Source: Lachnospiraceae bacterium MA2020 (GTDB lineage: Bacteria; Bacillota; Clostridia; Lachnospirales; Lachnospiraceae). Taken from it: a stretch of 64,000 bases of DNA. The stretch lies in assembly GCA_000746015.1 (NCBI GenBank), contig JQKK01000012.1, forward strand, positions 1-64,000, given 5' to 3'. Shown here one piece after another: positions 530-26,172 of this stretch (positions are counted from its first letter, which is position 1; every line of letters begins with the position of its first letter). Below the pieces are notes generated by a model. The model saw nothing but the letters and a program-made list of their open reading frames with translations, did not search any database and was not told the origin of the DNA. Both the position numbers and the translations under genes were made by a program.

Positions 530-2155
530 ATGGTTAAGCTTTTTTTGGTGGAAGACGAGATCATTATGCGGGATGGTATAAAAAAGCATATTGACTGGAA
601 GGGAGAAGATATTGATTTTTGCGGAGAGGCGAGTGATGGAGAGCTTGCATTTCCGATGATATTGAAGTTAAAACCGGATATTCTGGTTACTGATATAAAA
701 ATGCCATTTATGGATGGCTTGGAACTGTCTAAGCTGGTAAAAAAAGAGTTGCCTAATATTAGGATTATTATTCTTTCGGGATATGATGAGTTTACGTATG
801 CACAGGAAGCTGTTTCTATAGGTGTTGAGGAATATTTATTAAAACCAATTTCTCCGGCTAAGCTGTTGAGTTCAATCAAAAAAGTAAAGGAAAAGATTGA
901 ATTATCGAGAGAAGAAGCAGGAATAGCCGATTGGACCAAGGAAGAATTACTTGAAAAAAACACAATAGAGCAACAAAAGCTCTTTAGGGCAATGGTATCA
1001 GGAAGTATGACCATGACAGAGCTTTTGGAAGCGGGAAAGAAACTTGATATAGAACTTACGGCAAGATTTTATCAGGTTACATTGTTTAATCTTTCTTTTG
1101 TAGGAGAAACAGGAGATATTTTTTCTGAGAAGCAGAATACTTTTTGGAAACAGGTAAATGAATATCTTGAAACAGTAGATAATTGCTATATATTTGATCG
1201 TGGAACAGAAGGACTTGCGCTTTTGGCACTTGACGAGACAGAAGAAGGCGTTGCCGATAAGATAAAGCAGGTTGTTGAGAAAATGATATCTATATCAAAG
1301 AATATTGTTGACGGAACATATTTTGTTGGTATAGGCAGCATTGTGAACAGGCTTAGCGAGATAAGTAAGTCATATGATAATGCAAATAGAGCTTTTTCAT
1401 ATAGATATTTTAAGAAACCAAACCAGATAATTGATTATAAAGATCTCAGTGTACCAAACAGTGGTACTATGGAAGTAGATGTAAATGCGGTAACATTTAA
1501 TGAAAAAAATAAGCAGGCATTTGAGAAGTTTTTGAGAAGCGGTTCTGCTGATGAGATAACACATTTTCTTGATGAGATTTTTTCTTCGTTTGGGGAAAAG
1601 AATGTAAAATCATTGCTTTATCTGAATTACATTACAATGGATCTTTATTTTGCAATAGTAAGTTTCATACATGATATTGGATATGAAATGAATGATCTTG
1701 GCGGAGATTTTGCTGATATAAATATTGCGATAAAGGGAATAAGCAATTCTGATGATGCCAAGAAGTACCTTGAAAAAGGACTTCGGAATGCTATAACACT
1801 GCGCGACAGTAATTCGGTTAAAAAGTATAGCGTGATACTTAAAGAAGTACTGGCATATATTGATGAAAACTTTGATAAAGATGATATTTCGCTGAATACG
1901 GTAGCATCTATTGCAAATATTAGTCCAAATCATTTTTCTACGATTTTTTCACAGGAAATTGGGGTGACTTTTATTGAATATCTTATTAGTAAGCGAATGG
2001 AGAAGGCAAAAGAACTTCTTATGACGACAAATCTGAGGAGCTCGGAGATTGCTTATAAGGTAGGATATAAAGATCCTCATTATTTTAGTTTTATGTTTAA
2101 AAAGACTCAGGGGATAACAACAAGAGAGTATAGAAGCAGGGGAAAAATTAAATAA
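530..2155 (+). CDS. YesN-type response regulator with AraC DNA-binding domain
   Basis: This 541-residue transcription factor belongs to a two-component system. Residues 1-120 are a receiver domain: acidic residues E8/D9, phospho-acceptor Asp55 in VTDIKMP and the conserved Lys in YLLKP. A middle region of about 300 residues has no recognisable enzyme signature. The last ~100 residues are a double helix-turn-helix of the AraC family ending in the typical GITTREYR motif. It is followed 13 nt later by its sensor kinase. Such YesM/YesN pairs usually sense oligosaccharides and switch on neighbouring ABC sugar transporters, and a sugar transporter starts 1.8 kb downstream. That regulatory link is inferred from position only. 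Confidence 0.9.
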   Translation: MVKLFLVEDEIIMRDGIKKHIDWKGEDIDFCGEASDGELAFPMILKLKPDILVTDIKMPFMDGLELSKLVKKELPNIRIIILSGYDEFTYAQEAVSIGVEEYLLKPISPAKLLSSIKKVKEKIELSREEAGIADWTKEELLEKNTIEQQKLFRAMVSGSMTMTELLEAGKKLDIELTARFYQVTLFNLSFVGETGDIFSEKQNTFWKQVNEYLETVDNCYIFDRGTEGLALLALDETEEGVADKIKQVVEKMISISKNIVDGTYFVGIGSIVNRLSEISKSYDNANRAFSYRYFKKPNQIIDYKDLSVPNSGTMEVDVNAVTFNEKNKQAFEKFLRSGSADEITHFLDEIFSSFGEKNVKSLLYLNYITMDLYFAIVSFIHDIGYEMNDLGGDFADINIAIKGISNSDDAKKYLEKGLRNAITLRDSNSVKKYSVILKEVLAYIDENFDKDDISLNTVASIANISPNHFSTIFSQEIGVTFIEYLISKRMEKAKELLMTTNLRSSEIAYKVGYKDPHYFSFMFKKTQGITTREYRSRGKIK

Positions 2156-2168
2156 GAGGGTATTGGGG

Positions 2169-3638
2169 ATGAAAACTTTAAGGCTGGATAAATTTTCTAT
2201 TAGAAGAAGATTGTATATCATGGGAGCGATTTTTTTGATTCCGATGATCATGATAACATGCTTTTTTCTATACACGCTTAACAGGTTTTGTAAATCATAT
2301 GATGATATTGTGCAGAATGTAACGCTGGCAAATCGCTATAATACTGTATTTAAGCCGGATATGGATGCTGTAATGTATCAGATGGTCATCAAGGCTGTTA
2401 GCAAGGAGAATACTCAGGCAGAGCTAAATTTAGAGAGCCCGGATTCTATGATAGCAGGGGCAAAAAATACTTTTCTGCTGCTGAGCTCAACTTCTACATC
2501 TAATAGAGCAAAAAATCAGCTTAAAATTATAGGAAAACTTCTAAATACCTTACAAAAAAATGTAAATAATATCGATGAAAGCATACTTGAAGATGGAACG
2601 TATGATGAAAATGTTTCCATGCTTGAAAATGATATATATATTCTGACTGAGCTTATACAGGAAAATATTTCCAAGTATATATATTATGAAGCGGCAAACA
2701 TGGAAAATATCAGTGACGCGATGGAAAACGAGAAAAATCGTGTCATGGTCATGTCGGGAATAATTATTGGAACGATAGTTATTTTTGTTACTGTACAGTC
2801 ATATCTGATATCTGTCAGTATCACTGAGCCTATTAAGCAGCTTGTACATGCTACAGAGCAGGTTGGAAAGGGGAATTTTGAAGTTATCTCGTATACGGAC
2901 GAAGGCGAGGAAAATGAGATAATCAGGCTAAACACAAGCTTTAACAAAATGACAAAGCGGATAGGTGATCTGGTAGAAAATATCCGGACAGAGCAGGAAA
3001 ATTCTAAAAATCTGGAATTGAAGCTGCTTCAGTCACAGATAAATCCGCATTTTTTATATAATACACTTGATAATATCGTGTGGCTTTCTGAGGATGACAG
3101 GAAGGAAGATGTAGCCGGGCTTGTGACGTCATTGTCTCAGTTTTTCAGGACAACACTCTCGGGTGGAAAGGATTTTATATCAATAGCTGCAGAAATATCT
3201 CATATTGACGCATATCTGCAGATACAATCATTTAGGTATAGAGATATACTTTCATATGATATTAAGGTTTCGGATAAGTTTGATGGATATAAAATCATAA
3301 AAATGACTCTGCAGCCAATCGTAGAAAATGCACTTTATCATGGTATAAAGAATAAACGTAGTGGTGGCAAGATAATAATCGATGCGGTTGATCTTGGAGA
3401 AAGCATCAAGATCATAGTTTCTGATAACGGTATGGGAATGACCGAAGAGCAGCTTCAGCAATGCAGAGACCTGATAGATGGTAAAGCTGTTCCGGATGAA
3501 AATAATGGTGGATTTGGAATGGCTAATGTTGCTGAAAGGCTTAGGCTTAATTATGGGGATACATATGGAATAAAGATATTCAGTAATTATGGAGAGGGAA
3601 CGAGTGTAGAAGTAGTAATACCAAAACAGGAAGTTTAA
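2169..3638 (+). CDS. YesM-type sensor histidine kinase
   Basis: This membrane sensor kinase is about 489 residues long. It has a transmembrane helix near residues 14-34, an extracytoplasmic helical sensor region and a second helix near 195-217. A HAMP segment follows, then the His_kinase signature with phospho-acceptor His294 in NPHFLYN. The C-terminal ATPase has N-box and G-box motifs (VENALYHG, DNGMGM, GFGMANV). The ATG at 2169 is preferred because AGAGGG sits 8 nt before it; a TTG two codons earlier lies too close to that ribosome site. It should phosphorylate the response regulator encoded just upstream. The inferred ligand is an extracellular sugar. Confidence 0.9.
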   Translation: MKTLRLDKFSIRRRLYIMGAIFLIPMIMITCFFLYTLNRFCKSYDDIVQNVTLANRYNTVFKPDMDAVMYQMVIKAVSKENTQAELNLESPDSMIAGAKNTFLLLSSTSTSNRAKNQLKIIGKLLNTLQKNVNNIDESILEDGTYDENVSMLENDIYILTELIQENISKYIYYEAANMENISDAMENEKNRVMVMSGIIIGTIVIFVTVQSYLISVSITEPIKQLVHATEQVGKGNFEVISYTDEGEENEIIRLNTSFNKMTKRIGDLVENIRTEQENSKNLELKLLQSQINPHFLYNTLDNIVWLSEDDRKEDVAGLVTSLSQFFRTTLSGGKDFISIAAEISHIDAYLQIQSFRYRDILSYDIKVSDKFDGYKIIKMTLQPIVENALYHGIKNKRSGGKIIIDAVDLGESIKIIVSDNGMGMTEEQLQQCRDLIDGKAVPDENNGGFGMANVAERLRLNYGDTYGIKIFSNYGEGTSVEVVIPKQEV

Positions 3639-3655
3639 TTGAATTTATATTATAC

Positions 3656-3692
3656 AGGTCATGTAATTGTGAGAAAATTACATGACCTTTTT
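3656..3692 (+). terminator. Intrinsic terminator after the kinase gene
   Basis: A 13-bp perfect stem (AGGTCATGTAATT with its complement) has a 7-nt loop and is followed by TTTTTG. It separates the two-component operon from the transporter operon. Confidence 0.9.
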
Positions 3693-3861
3693 GTATACTT
3701 TTTCTAAAAATGAATAGTGTATTCAATATCACTAAAAGTAAAGTAAAAAAACATACTATTTTGGATAAAATAATCAAAATTATTAATTTGGTGTTCATGA
3801 ATCGGTAAAAAATACCACTAAACAATGAAATTTATGCATGGATGTTAGAACAATTTCACTA

Positions 3862-19182: not shown

Positions 19183-19405
19183 ATTTTTGCTCCTTCTTTT
19201 TACATAATTTCCCTATACTTATATCGACAAAGAGTAATAAATACTTTAGCTGTATACAATATTGGATAAAAATAATCAATAAAATAGATTAAATTTGTCC
19301 CTTTTAATTATGCTGATGCTATGCTAACATAACAAACATCAAGGTATTTGATTGAAAATGTTTAATGATTCTAGTTGTATATTATAGTCAAGCGAGGTCG
19401 GGGAT

Positions 19406-21397
19406 ATGTTTAATTCTAAAAAGTATCAGATTCCATATTTTATGCCAAAGAATCCCACTTATGAGTGGACAAAAAAAGATCATATAACAAAAGCGCCTAT
19501 ATGGTGCAGTGTTGACCTTAGAGATGGAAATCAGGCTTTGATAGAGCCAATGAGCTTAAATGAAAAGCTTGAGTTTTTCAGGATGCTTGTTGATATAGGC
19601 TTTAAGGAAATTGAAATTGGTTTCCCTGCAGCATCCGACACAGAATATAAATTTGCAAGAACCTTGATTGAAAATAACATGGTTCCGAGTGATGTTACAC
19701 TTCAGGTGCTTACTCAGGCACGTGATCACATCATCAGGAAAACTTTTGAAGCGGTAAAGGGAGCACCTCACGCTATTATTCATTTATATAATTCTACTTC
19801 TGTAGCTCAGCGTGAGCAGGTATTCCATAAAGATAAAAAAGAAATTAAAAAGATCGCTGTTGAGGGCGCAAAGCTTTTGAAGCAGCTTGCTGATGAGACT
19901 AAGGGTAATTTCTCATTTGAGTACTCTCCTGAGAGTTTCCCGGGAACAGAGGTTGAGTATGCTGTTGAAGTGTGCAATGCCGTTCTTGATGTGTGGAAGC
20001 CAAAGAAGGAAAATAAGGTAATCATAAATATTCCTACTACAGTTGAGAACGCTATGCCTCATGTATTTGCAACTCAGCTTGAGTACGTGAATAATAGTCT
20101 GAAATATAGAAATGCTGTTACTCTTTCTATCCATCCTCATAATGACAGAGGTACCGGAGTTGCCACTGCAGAGATGGGTGTACTTGCCGGAGCAGACAGG
20201 ATCGAGGGTACTCTTTTTGGAAACGGCGAGAGAACAGGTAACGTAGATATCGTGACACTTGCCATGAATATGTATTCACATGGTGTTGATTCCAAGCTTG
20301 ATTTTTCAAATATCAGTGGAATCGGTGAAACTTATGAAAAGCTCACAAGAATGCATATCTATGAGAGACAGCCTTATGCCGGTCAGCTTGTATTTACAGC
20401 ATTCTCAGGATCACATCAGGATGCAATCGCAAAGGGCTTCAAGTGGCACAAAGAGAACCCTGACAAGCCATGGTGTGTACCGTATCTTCCGGTTGATCCT
20501 CATGATCTTGGAAGAGAGTATGACGGTGATGTTATCAGAATTAACAGCCAGTCCGGAAAGGGCGGAGTAAGCTATATTCTTCAGCACAATTTTGGACTTC
20601 AGCTTCCTAAGGAAATGCAGGAAGATGTCGGATATACTATCAAGGGCATCTCTGATAAAGAGCATGCTGAGCTTTCACCGGAGAGAGTTTACCATATCTT
20701 TGAGGATAAGTATATCAACAATGACGGTGTATTTACTGTTGCAGAGTGCCACTTTGAGCAGGTTGATGGAATTCTGGCACGAGTCACATTTAACCGCAAG
20801 GGCAAGAACGTGATGGTGGCTGCAAACGGAAATGGTCGCCTGGATGCAGTGAGCAATGCGATAAAGTCATATTTTGATGTGAGCTATGAGCTTTCAGTTT
20901 ACACAGAGCATGCGTTGACACAAGGCTCATCTTCAAGGGCCTGCACTTATGTAGGTATCAACTGCGCAGGCAAGAGATACTGGGGTGTTGGAATTGATGA
21001 AGATATTATCAAGTCCTCTATTAATGCACTCACTGTTGCTGTAAATCAGATTGAAAGCATCAGAGATTCACATGATGACAAGGATCAGAGAATTACTGAG
21101 ATAATCAATTTTATCCAGGAGAAGTACCTGGCGGTTACGCTTGATGACCTTTCAAGAGAGTTTTATCTTTCAAAGCCTTATCTTTCAAAGTACATCAAAG
21201 AGAAGTCTGGTGCTACATTCAGCGAGAATGTGCAGAAGATCAGACTTAAGAAGGCATGTACATTGCTTAAGAATGGCAACATGAAAGTAGAAAAGGTTGC
21301 TGAAAATGTTGGTTATCCAAGTGTTGAGCACTTCAACAGGCAGTTTAAGAAACGCTATGGTATGACACCGGTGCAGTACAGGAATTCAGCTAAATAA
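19406..21397 (+). CDS. leuA: 2-isopropylmalate synthase (LeuA2 type) fused to a C-terminal AraC DNA-binding domain
   Basis: 663 residues in one uninterrupted frame. Residues ~1-400 are the catalytic TIM barrel of alpha-isopropylmalate synthase, the first committed step of leucine synthesis. It has WCSVDLRDGNQALIEPM and the metal-binding HPHNDRG. Residues ~430-550 are the leucine-responsive allosteric domain (YTEHALTQGSSSRACTYV). Residues ~558-663 form a complete AraC-type double helix-turn-helix: LDDLSREFYLSKPYLSKYI, then VEKVAENVGYPSVEHFNRQF and YGMTPVQYRNS. Ordinary enzymes of this class end near residue 560. GAGGTCGGGG precedes the ATG. No T-box, leucine leader peptide or clean -35/-10 pair is visible in the 220 bp upstream. 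I infer an enzyme that could also act as a leucine-sensing transcription factor. Confidence 0.93.
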   Translation: MFNSKKYQIPYFMPKNPTYEWTKKDHITKAPIWCSVDLRDGNQALIEPMSLNEKLEFFRMLVDIGFKEIEIGFPAASDTEYKFARTLIENNMVPSDVTLQVLTQARDHIIRKTFEAVKGAPHAIIHLYNSTSVAQREQVFHKDKKEIKKIAVEGAKLLKQLADETKGNFSFEYSPESFPGTEVEYAVEVCNAVLDVWKPKKENKVIINIPTTVENAMPHVFATQLEYVNNSLKYRNAVTLSIHPHNDRGTGVATAEMGVLAGADRIEGTLFGNGERTGNVDIVTLAMNMYSHGVDSKLDFSNISGIGETYEKLTRMHIYERQPYAGQLVFTAFSGSHQDAIAKGFKWHKENPDKPWCVPYLPVDPHDLGREYDGDVIRINSQSGKGGVSYILQHNFGLQLPKEMQEDVGYTIKGISDKEHAELSPERVYHIFEDKYINNDGVFTVAECHFEQVDGILARVTFNRKGKNVMVAANGNGRLDAVSNAIKSYFDVSYELSVYTEHALTQGSSSRACTYVGINCAGKRYWGVGIDEDIIKSSINALTVAVNQIESIRDSHDDKDQRITEIINFIQEKYLAVTLDDLSREFYLSKPYLSKYIKEKSGATFSENVQKIRLKKACTLLKNGNMKVEKVAENVGYPSVEHFNRQFKKRYGMTPVQYRNSAK

Positions 21398-21594: not shown

Positions 21595-21644
21595 GCGTGG
21601 CTAAGAAACCAGCGGGAAGCTGCGTGACTTGCCATGCTTTTTTT
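21595..21644 (+). promoter_or_regulatory. Nested-hairpin attenuator in the glpP leader
   Basis: Outer stem GCGTGGC/GCCATGC ends in seven Ts and encloses an inner hairpin CAGC-GGGAA-GCTG, preceded by TAAGAAAC. It has the form of an intrinsic terminator in the leader of the operon that encodes the antiterminator GlpP. A similarly built element lies before the first flavoprotein gene (24638-24693). GlpP is known to bind leader RNA in Bacillus; binding here is inferred. Confidence 0.7.
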
Positions 21645-21670
21645 GCGCCTATTTTTGGGAGGTCACGACA

Positions 21671-22279
21671 TTGCCTAAAGACACTTTCATCTACGAAAAT
21701 GAATCAATGCAAAAATTTATTGAGCAGATTGAAGACACGCCGATCATAGCGGCAATTAAAGATGATAAGGGTCTTGAGACATGCCTGACAACCGATGTAA
21801 ATGTAGTTTTTGTCCTATATGGAGATGTATGTTCGATAGGCAGCATAGTTAAGCGATTGCATGATGCAGGACGCACAGCTATGGTGCATATTGATCTGAT
21901 AGGGGGGCTAAGCTCCAAGGATGCGGCAGTTGATTTTATTAAAAATTACACTGCGGCAGATGGGATAATCACAACGAAGAGTTCACTCATAGCTCACGCA
22001 AAGGATATCGGGCTTCATACGGTACTCAGATATTTTGTTCTTGACAGTATGGCACTTGTGAATATCGAGAAAGGTTCGCGGCGGGGGGTCGTACAACCGG
22101 ACTTTATCGAGTTTTTACCAGGGGTGGTACTTCCAAGTGTCATCAAAAAGATCAACTCTATCAGCAGAGTACCTATTATAGCCGGGGGGATGATAACCAC
22201 GCGTGAAGAAGTGATGAATGCCTTAAATAATGGTGCAATGGCGATCTCAACGACAAATGAGAAGGTTTGGAGAATGTAA
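21671..22279 (+). CDS. glpP: Glycerol-3-phosphate-responsive antiterminator GlpP
   Basis: An RNA-binding TIM-barrel-like regulator of about 202 residues. In Bacillus, GlpP with glycerol 3-phosphate prevents termination in glp leader transcripts. Family motifs seen are PIIAAIKDDKGLE, VHIDLIGGLSSKDAAVDF, IITTKSSLIAHAK, VQPDFIEFLPGV and PIIAGGMITTREEV. The TTG at 21671 is chosen because GGGAGG lies 8 nt upstream. An ATG 42 nt earlier would start inside the attenuator hairpin. It precedes glpK by 46 nt, and its own leader has a terminator, which suggests autoregulation. Confidence 0.92.
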   Translation: MPKDTFIYENESMQKFIEQIEDTPIIAAIKDDKGLETCLTTDVNVVFVLYGDVCSIGSIVKRLHDAGRTAMVHIDLIGGLSSKDAAVDFIKNYTAADGIITTKSSLIAHAKDIGLHTVLRYFVLDSMALVNIEKGSRRGVVQPDFIEFLPGVVLPSVIKKINSISRVPIIAGGMITTREEVMNALNNGAMAISTTNEKVWRM

Positions 22280-22283
22280 AAAA

Positions 22284-22305
22284 CAGTCGAGAAAAGACTG
22301 CTTTT
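22284..22305 (+). terminator. Weak hairpin between glpP and glpK
   Basis: CAGTC/GACTG with a 7-nt loop is followed by CTTTT. A short stem, so possibly only a partial terminator that lets glpK be set apart from glpP. Confidence 0.5.
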
Positions 22306-22310
22306 AATGA

Positions 22311-23825
<1,515 letters not shown>

Positions 23826-23878
23826 ATGTAGGTATGATCAATTAAATATGGATAGATTCTACGGGAGGTAATATATAA

Positions 23879-24601
23879 ATGTCAGTTTATGTTGGAGAAT
23901 TTATTGGCACTATTTTACTAGTACTTCTTGGTGACGGCGTTTGCTGTAACGTTTCCTTGGAAAAATCAGGATTTAAGGGCGGCGGTGCCGTACATATCCT
24001 TATTGGCTGGGGAATGGCCGTTATGGTTCCTGCATTTGCAATGAGCAACTTTGTTGGCTGCGGTTCAGCATTTAACCCTGCTGTTACTATTGGCGCAGCT
24101 TTAAGAAGCGGAGATTGGAGCACAGTTCCGGGACAGATAATTGCTCAGTTGCTTGGTGGATTTGTCGGTGCAGCAATACTTATCATTCTTTACGGTGATC
24201 ATATCAGGGCAACAGCTGATGATGCTACAGTAAGAGGCTGCTTCTGCACAGGACCTTCTATTCCAAATGTAGGATTGAATTTCCTTTCAGAGTTCGTAGC
24301 TACATTCGTTCTTGTATTTACTCTTGCACTTATTCCTGCAGGCGCAGATCGCGTTGTATGGGTACTTGTTTATGGCGTAATCGTTGCATGCGGAGCTTCT
24401 TTTGGAGGTCTTACAGGATATGCAATGAATGCAGCAAGAGATTCTGCTCCTCGTCTTGCTTATCAGCTTCTTGCGCCTAACTTTGGCAAGAAGAATGCAG
24501 ACTGGGGATATGGCTGGATCCCGCTTGTAGCTCCAATCTGTGGCGCTGTTGTTGCATCACTTCTATACAATGCACTTGCAGCAGCTCAGATGTTTGGTTG
24601 A
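23879..24601 (+). CDS. glpF: Glycerol facilitator (MIP/aquaporin family)
   Basis: A 240-residue six-helix channel for glycerol uptake. The first pore motif NPA lies in GSAFNPAVTIG. The second, usually NPARD, reads NAARD in GYAMNAARDSAPR. The Asp diagnostic of glycerol-conducting members is kept. A GGGAGG ribosome site precedes the ATG, 53 nt after glpK. Position between glpK and the glycerol 3-phosphate oxidising flavoproteins supports glycerol as substrate. Confidence 0.9.
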   Translation: MSVYVGEFIGTILLVLLGDGVCCNVSLEKSGFKGGGAVHILIGWGMAVMVPAFAMSNFVGCGSAFNPAVTIGAALRSGDWSTVPGQIIAQLLGGFVGAAILIILYGDHIRATADDATVRGCFCTGPSIPNVGLNFLSEFVATFVLVFTLALIPAGADRVVWVLVYGVIVACGASFGGLTGYAMNAARDSAPRLAYQLLAPNFGKKNADWGYGWIPLVAPICGAVVASLLYNALAAAQMFG

Positions 24602-24637
24602 TTTTTTGGTATCATAATTAAATAGTATTGCAGAGAC

Positions 24638-24693
24638 AGGAGTCGGGCATAATAACCGTGCGGGGAGCACGTCTATTGCCTGACTCCTATTTT
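24638..24693 (+). promoter_or_regulatory. Nested-hairpin attenuator between glpF and the flavoprotein genes
   Basis: Outer stem AGGAGTCGGGCA/TGCCTGACTCCT (12 bp with one G-U) encloses CGTGC-GGGGA-GCACG, preceded by TAATAAC. ATTTTA follows. It has the same plan as the glpP leader element: TAA(G/T)AA flank, short inner stem, GGG(A/G)A loop, and an outer terminator stem. Confidence 0.68.
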
Positions 24694-24720
24694 ACTTCAT
24701 ATGTAGGAGGGAGAATTAAA

Positions 24721-26172
24721 GTGGTATATGATGTTGTGATCATTGGTGCCGGAGTTACCGGCGCAGCAGTAGCGAGAGAGCTTTCTCGATATAAGGATTT
24801 AAATGTATGTGTACTTGAAAAAGAAGAGGACGTATGCTCAGGAACATCAAAGGCAAACAGTGCTATTGTCCATGCCGGATTTGATGCCGCTGAAGGTTCT
24901 CTTATGGCGAAACTCAATGTTGAAGGTAATGAGATGATGGATGAGCTGTGTGAAGATCTCGATATACCTTTCAAGCGCAACGGCTCGTTGGTAGTTTGTA
25001 TCCATAAAGAAGAACTTCCGGGGCTTAAGGATCTCTATGACAGAGGTGTAAAGAATGGTGTAAAGGATCTTAAGATCCTGAGCAAAGAAGAAGTAAAGGC
25101 TATGGAGCCTAATCTTTCAGATAATGCCCTGGGTGCGCTCTATGCACCTACGGGTGGAATTATCTGTCCGTTCATACTCAATATTGCCATGGCTGAAAAT
25201 GCCAATGTAAATGGAGTTGATTTCCGCTTTAATACAGAAGTGGAGAACTTAAGAAAAGATGAAAATGGAATCTGGCATATTCGCACAAATAATGGCGAAT
25301 ATCTTACAAAATATATTGTTAATGCAGCGGGTGTATATGCAGACAAGTTCCACAACATGGTAAGTGAGAAGAAGATACACATCACTGCAAGACGCGGAGA
25401 TTATTGCCTTTTGGATCATGAAATGGGAGAGTATGTATCTCATACTATTTTCCCTCAGCCAACAAAGCTTGGAAAGGGTGTACTTGTATCGCCTACAGTC
25501 CACGGCAATCTGATAGTAGGTCCGACTGCAGTTGATATAGAAGACAAAGAGGCAACAGCTACTACTGCTGATGGAATCAATGACTTAATGGAAAAATCCG
25601 GAATGAATGTAGATAACTTAAATGTTAGAAGAAAGGTTATCACATCCTTTGCAGGACTTAGGGCACATGAAGATGGTCATGAGTTCATTATCAACTGGGT
25701 AGATGATGCTCCGGGATTCTTTGACTGTGCAGGAATCGAGTCTCCGGGACTTTCAAGCTCACCTGCGATCGGCAGGATGGTTGCGAAAATGTTTAAGGAA
25801 AAGCTTTCTTTAAGCGAAAAGTCTGACTGGATATCAAAGAGGAAGGGAATAGTCATAACCAAGGAGCTCTCAATTGAAGAAAGAAACGAGCTCATAAAGA
25901 AAAATCCTGCCTATGGAACTATAGTGTGCAGATGTGAATCTATCACAGAGGGAGAGATCCTGGATGCTATACATCGTCCGCTTGGAGCACGCAGCCTTGA
26001 TGGAGTAAAACGAAGAGTAAGAGCCGGCATGGGAAGATGTCAGGCGGGATTCTGCTCACCGAAAACGATGGAAATATTAAACAGAGAACTTGGTATCCCT
26101 ATGGAGAAGATTACCAAGAGCGGTGGAAAGTCAAATATTGTGCTTGAGCGTACTAAAGGAGGCAGGGACTGA
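24721..26172 (+). CDS. FAD-dependent glycerol-3-phosphate dehydrogenase-like oxidoreductase (GlpA/LhgO-like) with BFD-type [2Fe-2S] domain
   Basis: About 483 residues. The N terminus is an FAD-binding DAO fold with the dinucleotide motif VIIGAGVTGAAVARELS. Family motifs such as CSGTSKANSAIVHAGFD and GLRAHEDGHEFII follow. The last ~90 residues are a BFD-like iron-sulphur domain (VCRCESITEGE, then GMGRCQAGFC). It probably oxidises glycerol 3-phosphate to dihydroxyacetone phosphate, passing electrons to the next gene product. The GTG at 24721 with GGAGGGAG 7 nt upstream is used. An ATG 93 nt earlier lies inside the attenuator hairpin. Confidence 0.88.
   Translation: MVYDVVIIGAGVTGAAVARELSRYKDLNVCVLEKEEDVCSGTSKANSAIVHAGFDAAEGSLMAKLNVEGNEMMDELCEDLDIPFKRNGSLVVCIHKEELPGLKDLYDRGVKNGVKDLKILSKEEVKAMEPNLSDNALGALYAPTGGIICPFILNIAMAENANVNGVDFRFNTEVENLRKDENGIWHIRTNNGEYLTKYIVNAAGVYADKFHNMVSEKKIHITARRGDYCLLDHEMGEYVSHTIFPQPTKLGKGVLVSPTVHGNLIVGPTAVDIEDKEATATTADGINDLMEKSGMNVDNLNVRRKVITSFAGLRAHEDGHEFIINWVDDAPGFFDCAGIESPGLSSSPAIGRMVAKMFKEKLSLSEKSDWISKRKGIVITKELSIEERNELIKKNPAYGTIVCRCESITEGEILDAIHRPLGARSLDGVKRRVRAGMGRCQAGFCSPKTMEILNRELGIPMEKITKSGGKSNIVLERTKGGRD

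Follow-up and report, generated by a model that had tools for sequence, protein, structure and literature searches.

The leuA gene of Lachnospiraceae bacterium MA2020 encodes a 2-isopropylmalate synthase with an AraC-type DNA-binding domain at its C terminus, and upstream of it lies a predicted 35-bp operator that is new here. We consider it probable that this LeuA-AraC protein is a self-regulating trigger enzyme, a bifunctional LeuA that binds its own promoter with leucine as the probable signal. In many species of a major family of gut and rumen bacteria, the committed, allosteric enzyme seems to act as its own transcription factor. Below, the window denotes the whole 64,000-nucleotide stretch analyzed (contig JQKK01000012.1, positions 1 to 64,000), and features are on its plus strand.

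The fusion gene (19406 to 21397) opens with ATG, has no internal stops, and specifies 663 amino acids. The sequence-only reading had proposed a one-frame fusion of LeuA to an AraC domain, and Pfam confirms it across the 663 codons, with all five domains above their curated cutoffs: the HMGL-like catalytic TIM barrel (residues 31 to 307, 19496 to 20326; 232.9 bits), the IPMS_D2 post-catalytic subdomain (residues 328 to 393, 20387 to 20584; 110.6 bits), the LeuA_dimer allosteric domain (residues 422 to 549, 20669 to 21052; 84 bits), HTH_18 (residues 582 to 660; 71 bits), and HTH_AraC (residues 622 to 660; 51.8 bits). The last two, taken with an AlphaFold2 model, delimit an AraC-type DNA-binding domain at residues 561 to 661 (21086 to 21388). 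The protein passes the family test for 2-isopropylmalate synthase (NCBIfam NF002991, 792.9 bits versus a cutoff of 455) and scores 652.8 bits with the yeast-type equivalog TIGR00970, under its cutoff of 697.4. A fold search supports LeuA, with the LeuA structures 1sr9 and 3fig as best matches; no AraC-type chain was among the best 50 matches listed. R39, D40, E176, H243, and H245 align with R80, D81, E218, H285, and H287 of 1sr9, and H337 and Y360, which lie outside the HMGL-like domain, align with H379 and Y410. These residues, which we take to be catalytic, are invariant across 44 fused proteins, as are G475-N476-G477, L479, Y499, and I534 of LeuA_dimer; by alignment, the active-site residues and the leucine-loop motifs are intact.

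The AlphaFold2 model has a mean pLDDT of 81 and a pTM of 0.61, at which its domain arrangement is unreliable. It shows seven helices in the AraC-type domain, with recognition helices at residues 590 to 601 and 640 to 651; the last LeuA_dimer helix (534 to 547) is followed by a short linker and then by the first helix of the DNA-binding domain, from residue 561. Both Pfam and the predicted helices give the two HTH units of the AraC/XylS family, and where that family has an N-terminal effector/dimer domain the fusion has LeuA. The protein is, on these sequence features, an AraC-domain carrier, not a classical AraC regulator, and its enzyme part and DNA-binding part both look intact.

This genome has four HMGL-like genes, the fusion included. 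Because the other three look like other enzymes, namely, a citrate-synthase-like protein, an oxaloacetate decarboxylase alpha subunit (NF008985, 740.2 bits, above cutoff), and an aldolase-like protein amid apparent nucleotide-sugar genes, the fusion appears to be the sole leuA. leuB is found elsewhere (496.8 bits, above cutoff), with an ilvD-like gene behind it. At another locus (L244, 5218 to 8715; contig C21 of this genome, G000), two tandem pairs of small and large aconitase-family subunits, leuD/leuC-like by eye, adjoin an ABC transporter. Downstream of the fusion, positions 21629 to 26172 of the window have the look of a glycerol operon, with a GlpP-like antiterminator, glycerol kinase, aquaporin, and FAD dehydrogenase recognized by eye.

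The operator came from a model-free motif search of the regions upstream of fused leuA genes, which returned AAAATAaATCAAtAAAAaTGATTA with a log-likelihood of 1181 versus 125 for single-base-shuffled sequence with fewer starts. Some minus-strand loci stood in unturned orientation in that run; all were turned in the later run that extended the motif to 35 bp. The 35-bp motif was built on 81 upstream regions (90 collected, minus 8 near-duplicates and 1 short region) and exceeds 20 bits in 69 of them. Among 581,964 background positions, one exceeds 20 bits, and this match, at 39.2 bits, equals the peak of locus L087 at the citrate-synthase-like gene. In the window, site 1 (AAAATAaATCAAtnAAAnTGATTAAATTTaTCACT; 19268 to 19302) scores 43.6 bits, the highest value on either strand, and nothing beyond this promoter rises above 4.5 bits. 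The 12 upstream regions under 20 bits are mixed: the core is one base shorter in L005 to L007, the dyad is different in L038 to L040, L095 falls marginally short, and the site of L097 (G007) lies outside the 800 nt scanned and reaches 38.3 bits when scored there, while the upstream scan with the 35-bp matrix found little or no motif in L059, L063, L064, and L101. The motif contains AAWWWATCA twice, with a period of 22 bp (type I) or 23 bp (type II), and such repeated half-sites near the −35 region are a feature of AraC/XylS operators; the downstream half can alternatively be read as an inverted repeat. In L034, L042, L098, and similar loci, the operator doubles as a long inverted repeat, GGAAAGTGA...TCACTTTCC, with a T run behind it, an arrangement that resembles the terminator of the upstream gene.

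We also searched 397 genomes with an exact 23-bp pattern, which is strict, in that most fused genomes match by the matrix only. It gave 33 matches in 32 genomes, and the reversed-pattern control gave none. By coordinates, 27 of the 33 precede a fused leuA by ~70 to 800 nt, one lies upstream of a split leuA (in G061, described below), one precedes a citrate-synthase-like gene, and one precedes leuC (TIGR02083, 722.2 bits, above cutoff). The other three fall inside coding frames in three genomes without a listed fusion; they look like chance, and we rejected them as true operators. A looser pattern gave 45 matches in 38 of 50 genomes (reversed control, 1), mostly leuA sites already known.

Targets besides leuA are few. 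When a 28-bp pattern was allowed three mismatches at most, only two sites emerged in the 3.72-Mb genome, at leuA and at the citrate-synthase-like gene, where the operator lies 144 nt before the gene (L087, 7063 to 10570; contig C1). That gene is followed by a GntR/FCD regulator gene and then by an isocitrate/isopropylmalate dehydrogenase-family gene; its product passed no curated model, and family and operon lead us to infer a Re-citrate synthase. The site scores 39.2 bits in this genome and 39.4 bits in that of L005, and no operator precedes the corresponding gene in 27 other fused genomes (best score, 15.1 bits, in G785). We rejected it as a rule (1 of 17 fused genomes and then 1 of 12 further ones). 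We likewise rejected the idea that leuC is generally preceded by an operator: among 30 fused genomes only G207 has one there, in a survey where the contig of G001 offered no upstream sequence and just a distant homologue was present in four genomes, that of the window included. Within the genus of G207, leuC carries the operator in four of five genomes (30.5 to 35.1 bits), with an extended −10 at 51 nt by eye; a pattern search found none in the fifth, G819. An operator-like site of 24.5 bits, picked up with the looser pattern, precedes an amino-acid permease gene in one Butyrivibrio metagenome genome (L213, 1345 to 2873). In the genome of the window, the matrix found no operator at the leuB locus (L273) or at the leuC-like genes (L244). 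The regulon of leuA, ilv, and leuCDB genes that had been envisaged from the window therefore looks too wide, since the operator search gave only leuA and the citrate-synthase-like operon here. Because operators away from leuA occur in few genomes, self-regulation appears to be the common theme, and the sites at leuC and the citrate-synthase-like operon seem to be local additions.

Promoter architecture is nearly constant. The window has an extended −10 (TGC-TAACAT; 19322 to 19330), read by eye, whose hexamer begins 50 nt past the initial A of the site 1 ATCAA. A script places the extended −10 at 49 to 51 nt from this base in 67 of 69 promoters; in the remaining two, those of the window (TAACAT) and L106 (TAGGAT), it picked a neighboring hexamer, and the −10 is at 50 by eye. 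In 66 of the 69, a TG stands ahead of the hexamer that was chosen. With the transcription start assumed to be 12 nt downstream of the first −10 base, this spacing means that the operator spans about −69 to −35, the region where AraC-class activators bind. No canonical sigma-70 promoter was found on the plus strand between 19150 and the fusion gene. Fixed placement without a −35 box is a requirement of a promoter-proximal activator, and the leuA promoter geometry would fit one. The predicted 5′ untranslated region (19337 to 19405; start at ~19337, from the −10) contains a GAGG ribosome-binding site at 19394 to 19397.

A second candidate site adjoins the predicted transcription start: site 2, the dyad ATCAA-N5-TTGAT at 19338 to 19352, 63 bp 3′ of site 1. 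Dyads of the form RTCAA-N5/6-TTGAY, matching at least 9 of 10 positions and lying 57 to 100 nt from site 1, occur in 42 of 69 promoters, where single-base shuffles expect 1.4 and related genomes are not independent counts. All 42 lie 59 to 65 or 73 to 76 nt downstream, two groups about one helical turn apart, and in the 73-to-76 group the first half of the dyad reads RACAA. All 13 of the near relatives L008 to L020 have it at 62 to 64; L027, L028, and L030 lack a second dyad.

We propose the following mechanism. The fusion protein very probably binds the operator at its own promoter. Its LeuA part would be an intact isopropylmalate synthase, probably inhibited by leucine, and the LeuA homodimer would present two AraC domains that fill the 35-bp operator at about −69 to −35. 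On site 1, beside an extended −10 that lacks a good −35 box, these domains would recruit polymerase; activation from site 1 is rather likely, and leuA would most likely be activated when leucine is scarce. Because the allosteric domain of LeuA is intact, control of binding by leucine or by flux is plausible, and on balance we favor leucine as the signal. Leucine in the LeuA_dimer domain would act through the last helix and the short linker to alter how far apart the two AraC domains stand or how they are oriented; the leucine pockets of LeuA are at the dimer interface, and a loop closes over leucine, according to an excerpt of one study (PMC11057210). With leucine bound, the AraC domains would either release the operator or bridge sites 1 and 2 (59 to 65 or 73 to 76 bp) and so repress, in an AraC-like manner; AraC alternates between a loop and adjacent half-sites, as described in part of another report (PMC6018408). 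A loop between sites 1 and 2 has, in our estimate, somewhat less than an even chance. Slightly more tentative still is a leucine rheostat, in which catalyst, sensor, and transcription factor are one molecule, an activating site 1 is set against a repressing site 1-site 2 loop in helical phase, and the circuit has, in some lineages, been wired to further genes related to leucine and acetyl-CoA, namely, leuC, the citrate-synthase-like operon, and perhaps the permease.

The same contacts could serve repression instead. If the leucine-bound fusion occupied sites 1 and 2 and blocked RNA polymerase, leucine would be a co-repressor, and the position of site 2 at the predicted transcription start and the reach of site 1 into the −35 region are both in keeping with this. 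So is the citrate-synthase-like promoter, which would need no activator because a good TTGACA box (by eye) adjoins its operator. However, an activator accounts better for the constant spacing of 49 to 51 nt to the extended −10 and for the lack of a −35 box at leuA, and 27 of the 69 promoters have no good second dyad. We regard such an autorepressor as unlikely; it shares the DNA-binding step with the self-regulating trigger enzyme that we favor, and the odds of the two overlap.

That it is the fusion which binds the operator is suggested by where the operator occurs. Above 10 bits, it is absent on both strands from all 30 unfused leuA loci scanned (L065 to L084, with 130 nt of upstream sequence for L084; G112; G389; and eight loci of the family, L275 to L282). 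G112 and G389 are lineages nested within the fused clade that have lost the HTH, and neither has the operator. Fused genes of another family have it, at 33.2 bits in G657 and 32.5 bits in G521, the two examined. The DNA-binding half of the trigger-enzyme idea, first raised from the window alone, is well supported by an operator that accompanies the fusion and is absent from the two lineages of HTH loss. Part of this association is common descent, since both elements are inherited in one clade, and co-inheritance alone could link them if another transcription factor bound the operator and the AraC domain of LeuA bound elsewhere or nowhere. This alternative is nevertheless improbable, given that the operator disappears with loss of the HTH (2 of 2), is present with the fusion in another family (2 of 2 examined), covaries with a recognition-helix residue, and is not widespread in genomes.

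The covarying residue is K590 (codon at 21173 to 21175), the first of the first recognition helix. Among 79 distinct promoters, with 17 that fit neither type omitted and phylogeny ignored, K590 accompanies the type I operator in 40 of 41 cases and a residue other than K accompanies type II in 20 of 21; L243 (G022) disagrees, combining S590 with a type I operator. The link is mostly a single clade-wide switch. Most non-K590 sequences form one clade, and in another, G657 agrees and G022 disagrees. Compared with other columns of equal entropy, those of the HTH have more information in common with the operator, if modestly (P = 0.007; 51 pairs, phylogeny ignored).

In the locus that holds the operator of the window with 1.5 kb on each side (L091), no Rfam family matched, T-box included, in line with the sequence-only reading, which saw no T-box or leader upstream of leuA. 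Its further suggestion that the fusion replaces a T-box is right for the window and many lineages but not for all: Rfam detects a T-box in 11 of 20 loci, 10 of them fused and the other the unfused G112, and in the 10 fused loci the T-box sits between the operator-promoter and leuA. Because these loci hold both, operator and T-box control can coexist. The unfused loci L275 to L282 contain a T-box consensus word and lack the operator. A SAM riboswitch lies 3′ of one fused leuA (L121, 4779 to 4883).

The fusion is widespread in the family. In one-genome-per-species contigs, we found 365 relatives and kept the best 80, of which 60 match the whole fusion (to residue 658 or beyond, at 66 to 89% identity), unlike the other 20. 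By title, the 60 are Lachnospiraceae or genera that we take to belong to this family, such as Butyrivibrio, Roseburia, Dorea, and Agathobacter, apart from a few Eubacterium and a single Clostridiales record. A search for homologues, proposed when the fusion was first noticed, places it at full length in at least 89 of the 397 family genomes sampled, counting among the matches listed those with a query end at residue 659 or more. Two of these, G047 and G116, have one stop inside the match, yet the fetched frames are open (661 and 678 amino acids). In G163, additional to the 89, the fusion is cut by a contig end. In G061 the HTH is a separate frame that overlaps the 3′ end of leuA out of frame, with the operator upstream (L199, reverse complement 1691 to 3780), which may be a true split or an assembly indel. 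Outside the family, the fusion occurs in three (G657, G521, and G659) of 391 genomes drawn from the class. G657 and G521 each also have a second, unfused leuA, which suggests that their fusions were acquired by transfer.

A LeuA tree with 89 tips and L077 as its root points to a single beginning. All fused proteins fall within a clade of 74 tips (support, 0.843), the smallest that contains them, made up of 71 fused proteins, the split G061, and the unfused lineages G112 and G389. L041, L043, L072, and L073 stand outside the tree, as do L079, L081, and L082, which have a stop codon in the fetched range. One origin of the fusion and at least two losses of the HTH would be the simplest account that fits a tree to which the many more distant unfused LeuA proteins of the family are external. 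By tblastn, no HTH remnants were detected behind unfused leuA in L065 to L084, L201, and L202; none were detected in L275 to L282, eight unfused loci of the family picked for matches running past stop codons.

Where it is retained, the HTH is under strong purifying selection. Pooled dN/dS is 0.015 for the HTH (11 pairs), 0.026 for the catalytic part (14 pairs), and 0.037 for the dimer domain (15 pairs), from 17 pairs tried, with those of saturated or undefined synonymous distance dropped. At least two losses mean that the AraC domain is dispensable in some lineages, as might be expected if it were a vestigial or merely structural tail. Against such a tail, however, its dN/dS is not above that of the catalytic part and the recognition-helix positions of fused proteins are conserved, and we consider it highly improbable. 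A sequencing or assembly error that joined leuA to an araC gene, the artifact against which the sequence-only reading had cautioned, is refuted by the independent genomes, from isolates and metagenome bins alike, that carry the same fusion over its whole length (60 of the 80 relatives kept; at least 89 of the 397 family genomes).

In amino-acid pathways, feedback inhibition and gene control normally sit in different molecules. If our reading is true, one domain fusion can turn an allosteric enzyme into a gene regulator, and the fusion is a candidate leucine-responsive part for Clostridia. Fused LeuA proteins deserve annotation as regulators too, and the defined operator makes the idea of self-regulation directly testable. 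We found no description of a LeuA-AraC protein in the open-access literature at the title and abstract level, a scope to which subscription papers are mostly, and bioRxiv wholly, external.

Among known systems, the nearest are trigger enzymes with a fused DNA-binding domain, such as PutA, BirA, and NadR. Like them, the fusion is a metabolic enzyme with its own DNA-binding domain, expected to couple expression to metabolite levels; they use other DNA-binding folds and serve other pathways, and to our knowledge none of the enzymes of this type combines an allosteric synthase of an amino-acid pathway with an AraC domain. In Ada, too, an enzyme, here a methyltransferase of DNA repair, is joined to an AraC-type HTH, and Ada activates its own gene; however, the switch of Ada is an irreversible self-methylation, whereas the enzyme in LeuA-AraC is biosynthetic, turns over repeatedly, and has a leucine site that works reversibly. 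AraC binds repeated half-sites about two helical turns apart that extend to the −35 region. The fusion resembles Escherichia coli AraC in its two-HTH domain, in the half-site arrangement of its predicted operator, and in a possible second site for looping and differs in that the whole of LeuA, as sensor and dimer part, replaces the arabinose domain. Its candidate loop would be ~63 or 74 bp, versus ~200 bp for AraC in the portion of PMC6018408 consulted. With LeuA of the NF002991/PRK03739 type (1sr9 and 3fig), it shares the catalytic, linker, and leucine-binding domains, which align over residues 26 to 548 (the final 29 residues weakly), and it differs by ~105 additional residues, the DNA-binding domain. 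T-box-controlled leuA genes are matched by those fused leuA genes that also have a T-box leader between promoter and gene; the gene of the window differs, with no T-box match and with predicted control of transcription initiation by the enzyme. LeuA-AraC belongs with the gene-regulating enzymes, and what is new is the combination of an allosteric amino-acid synthase, an AraC domain, and an operator.
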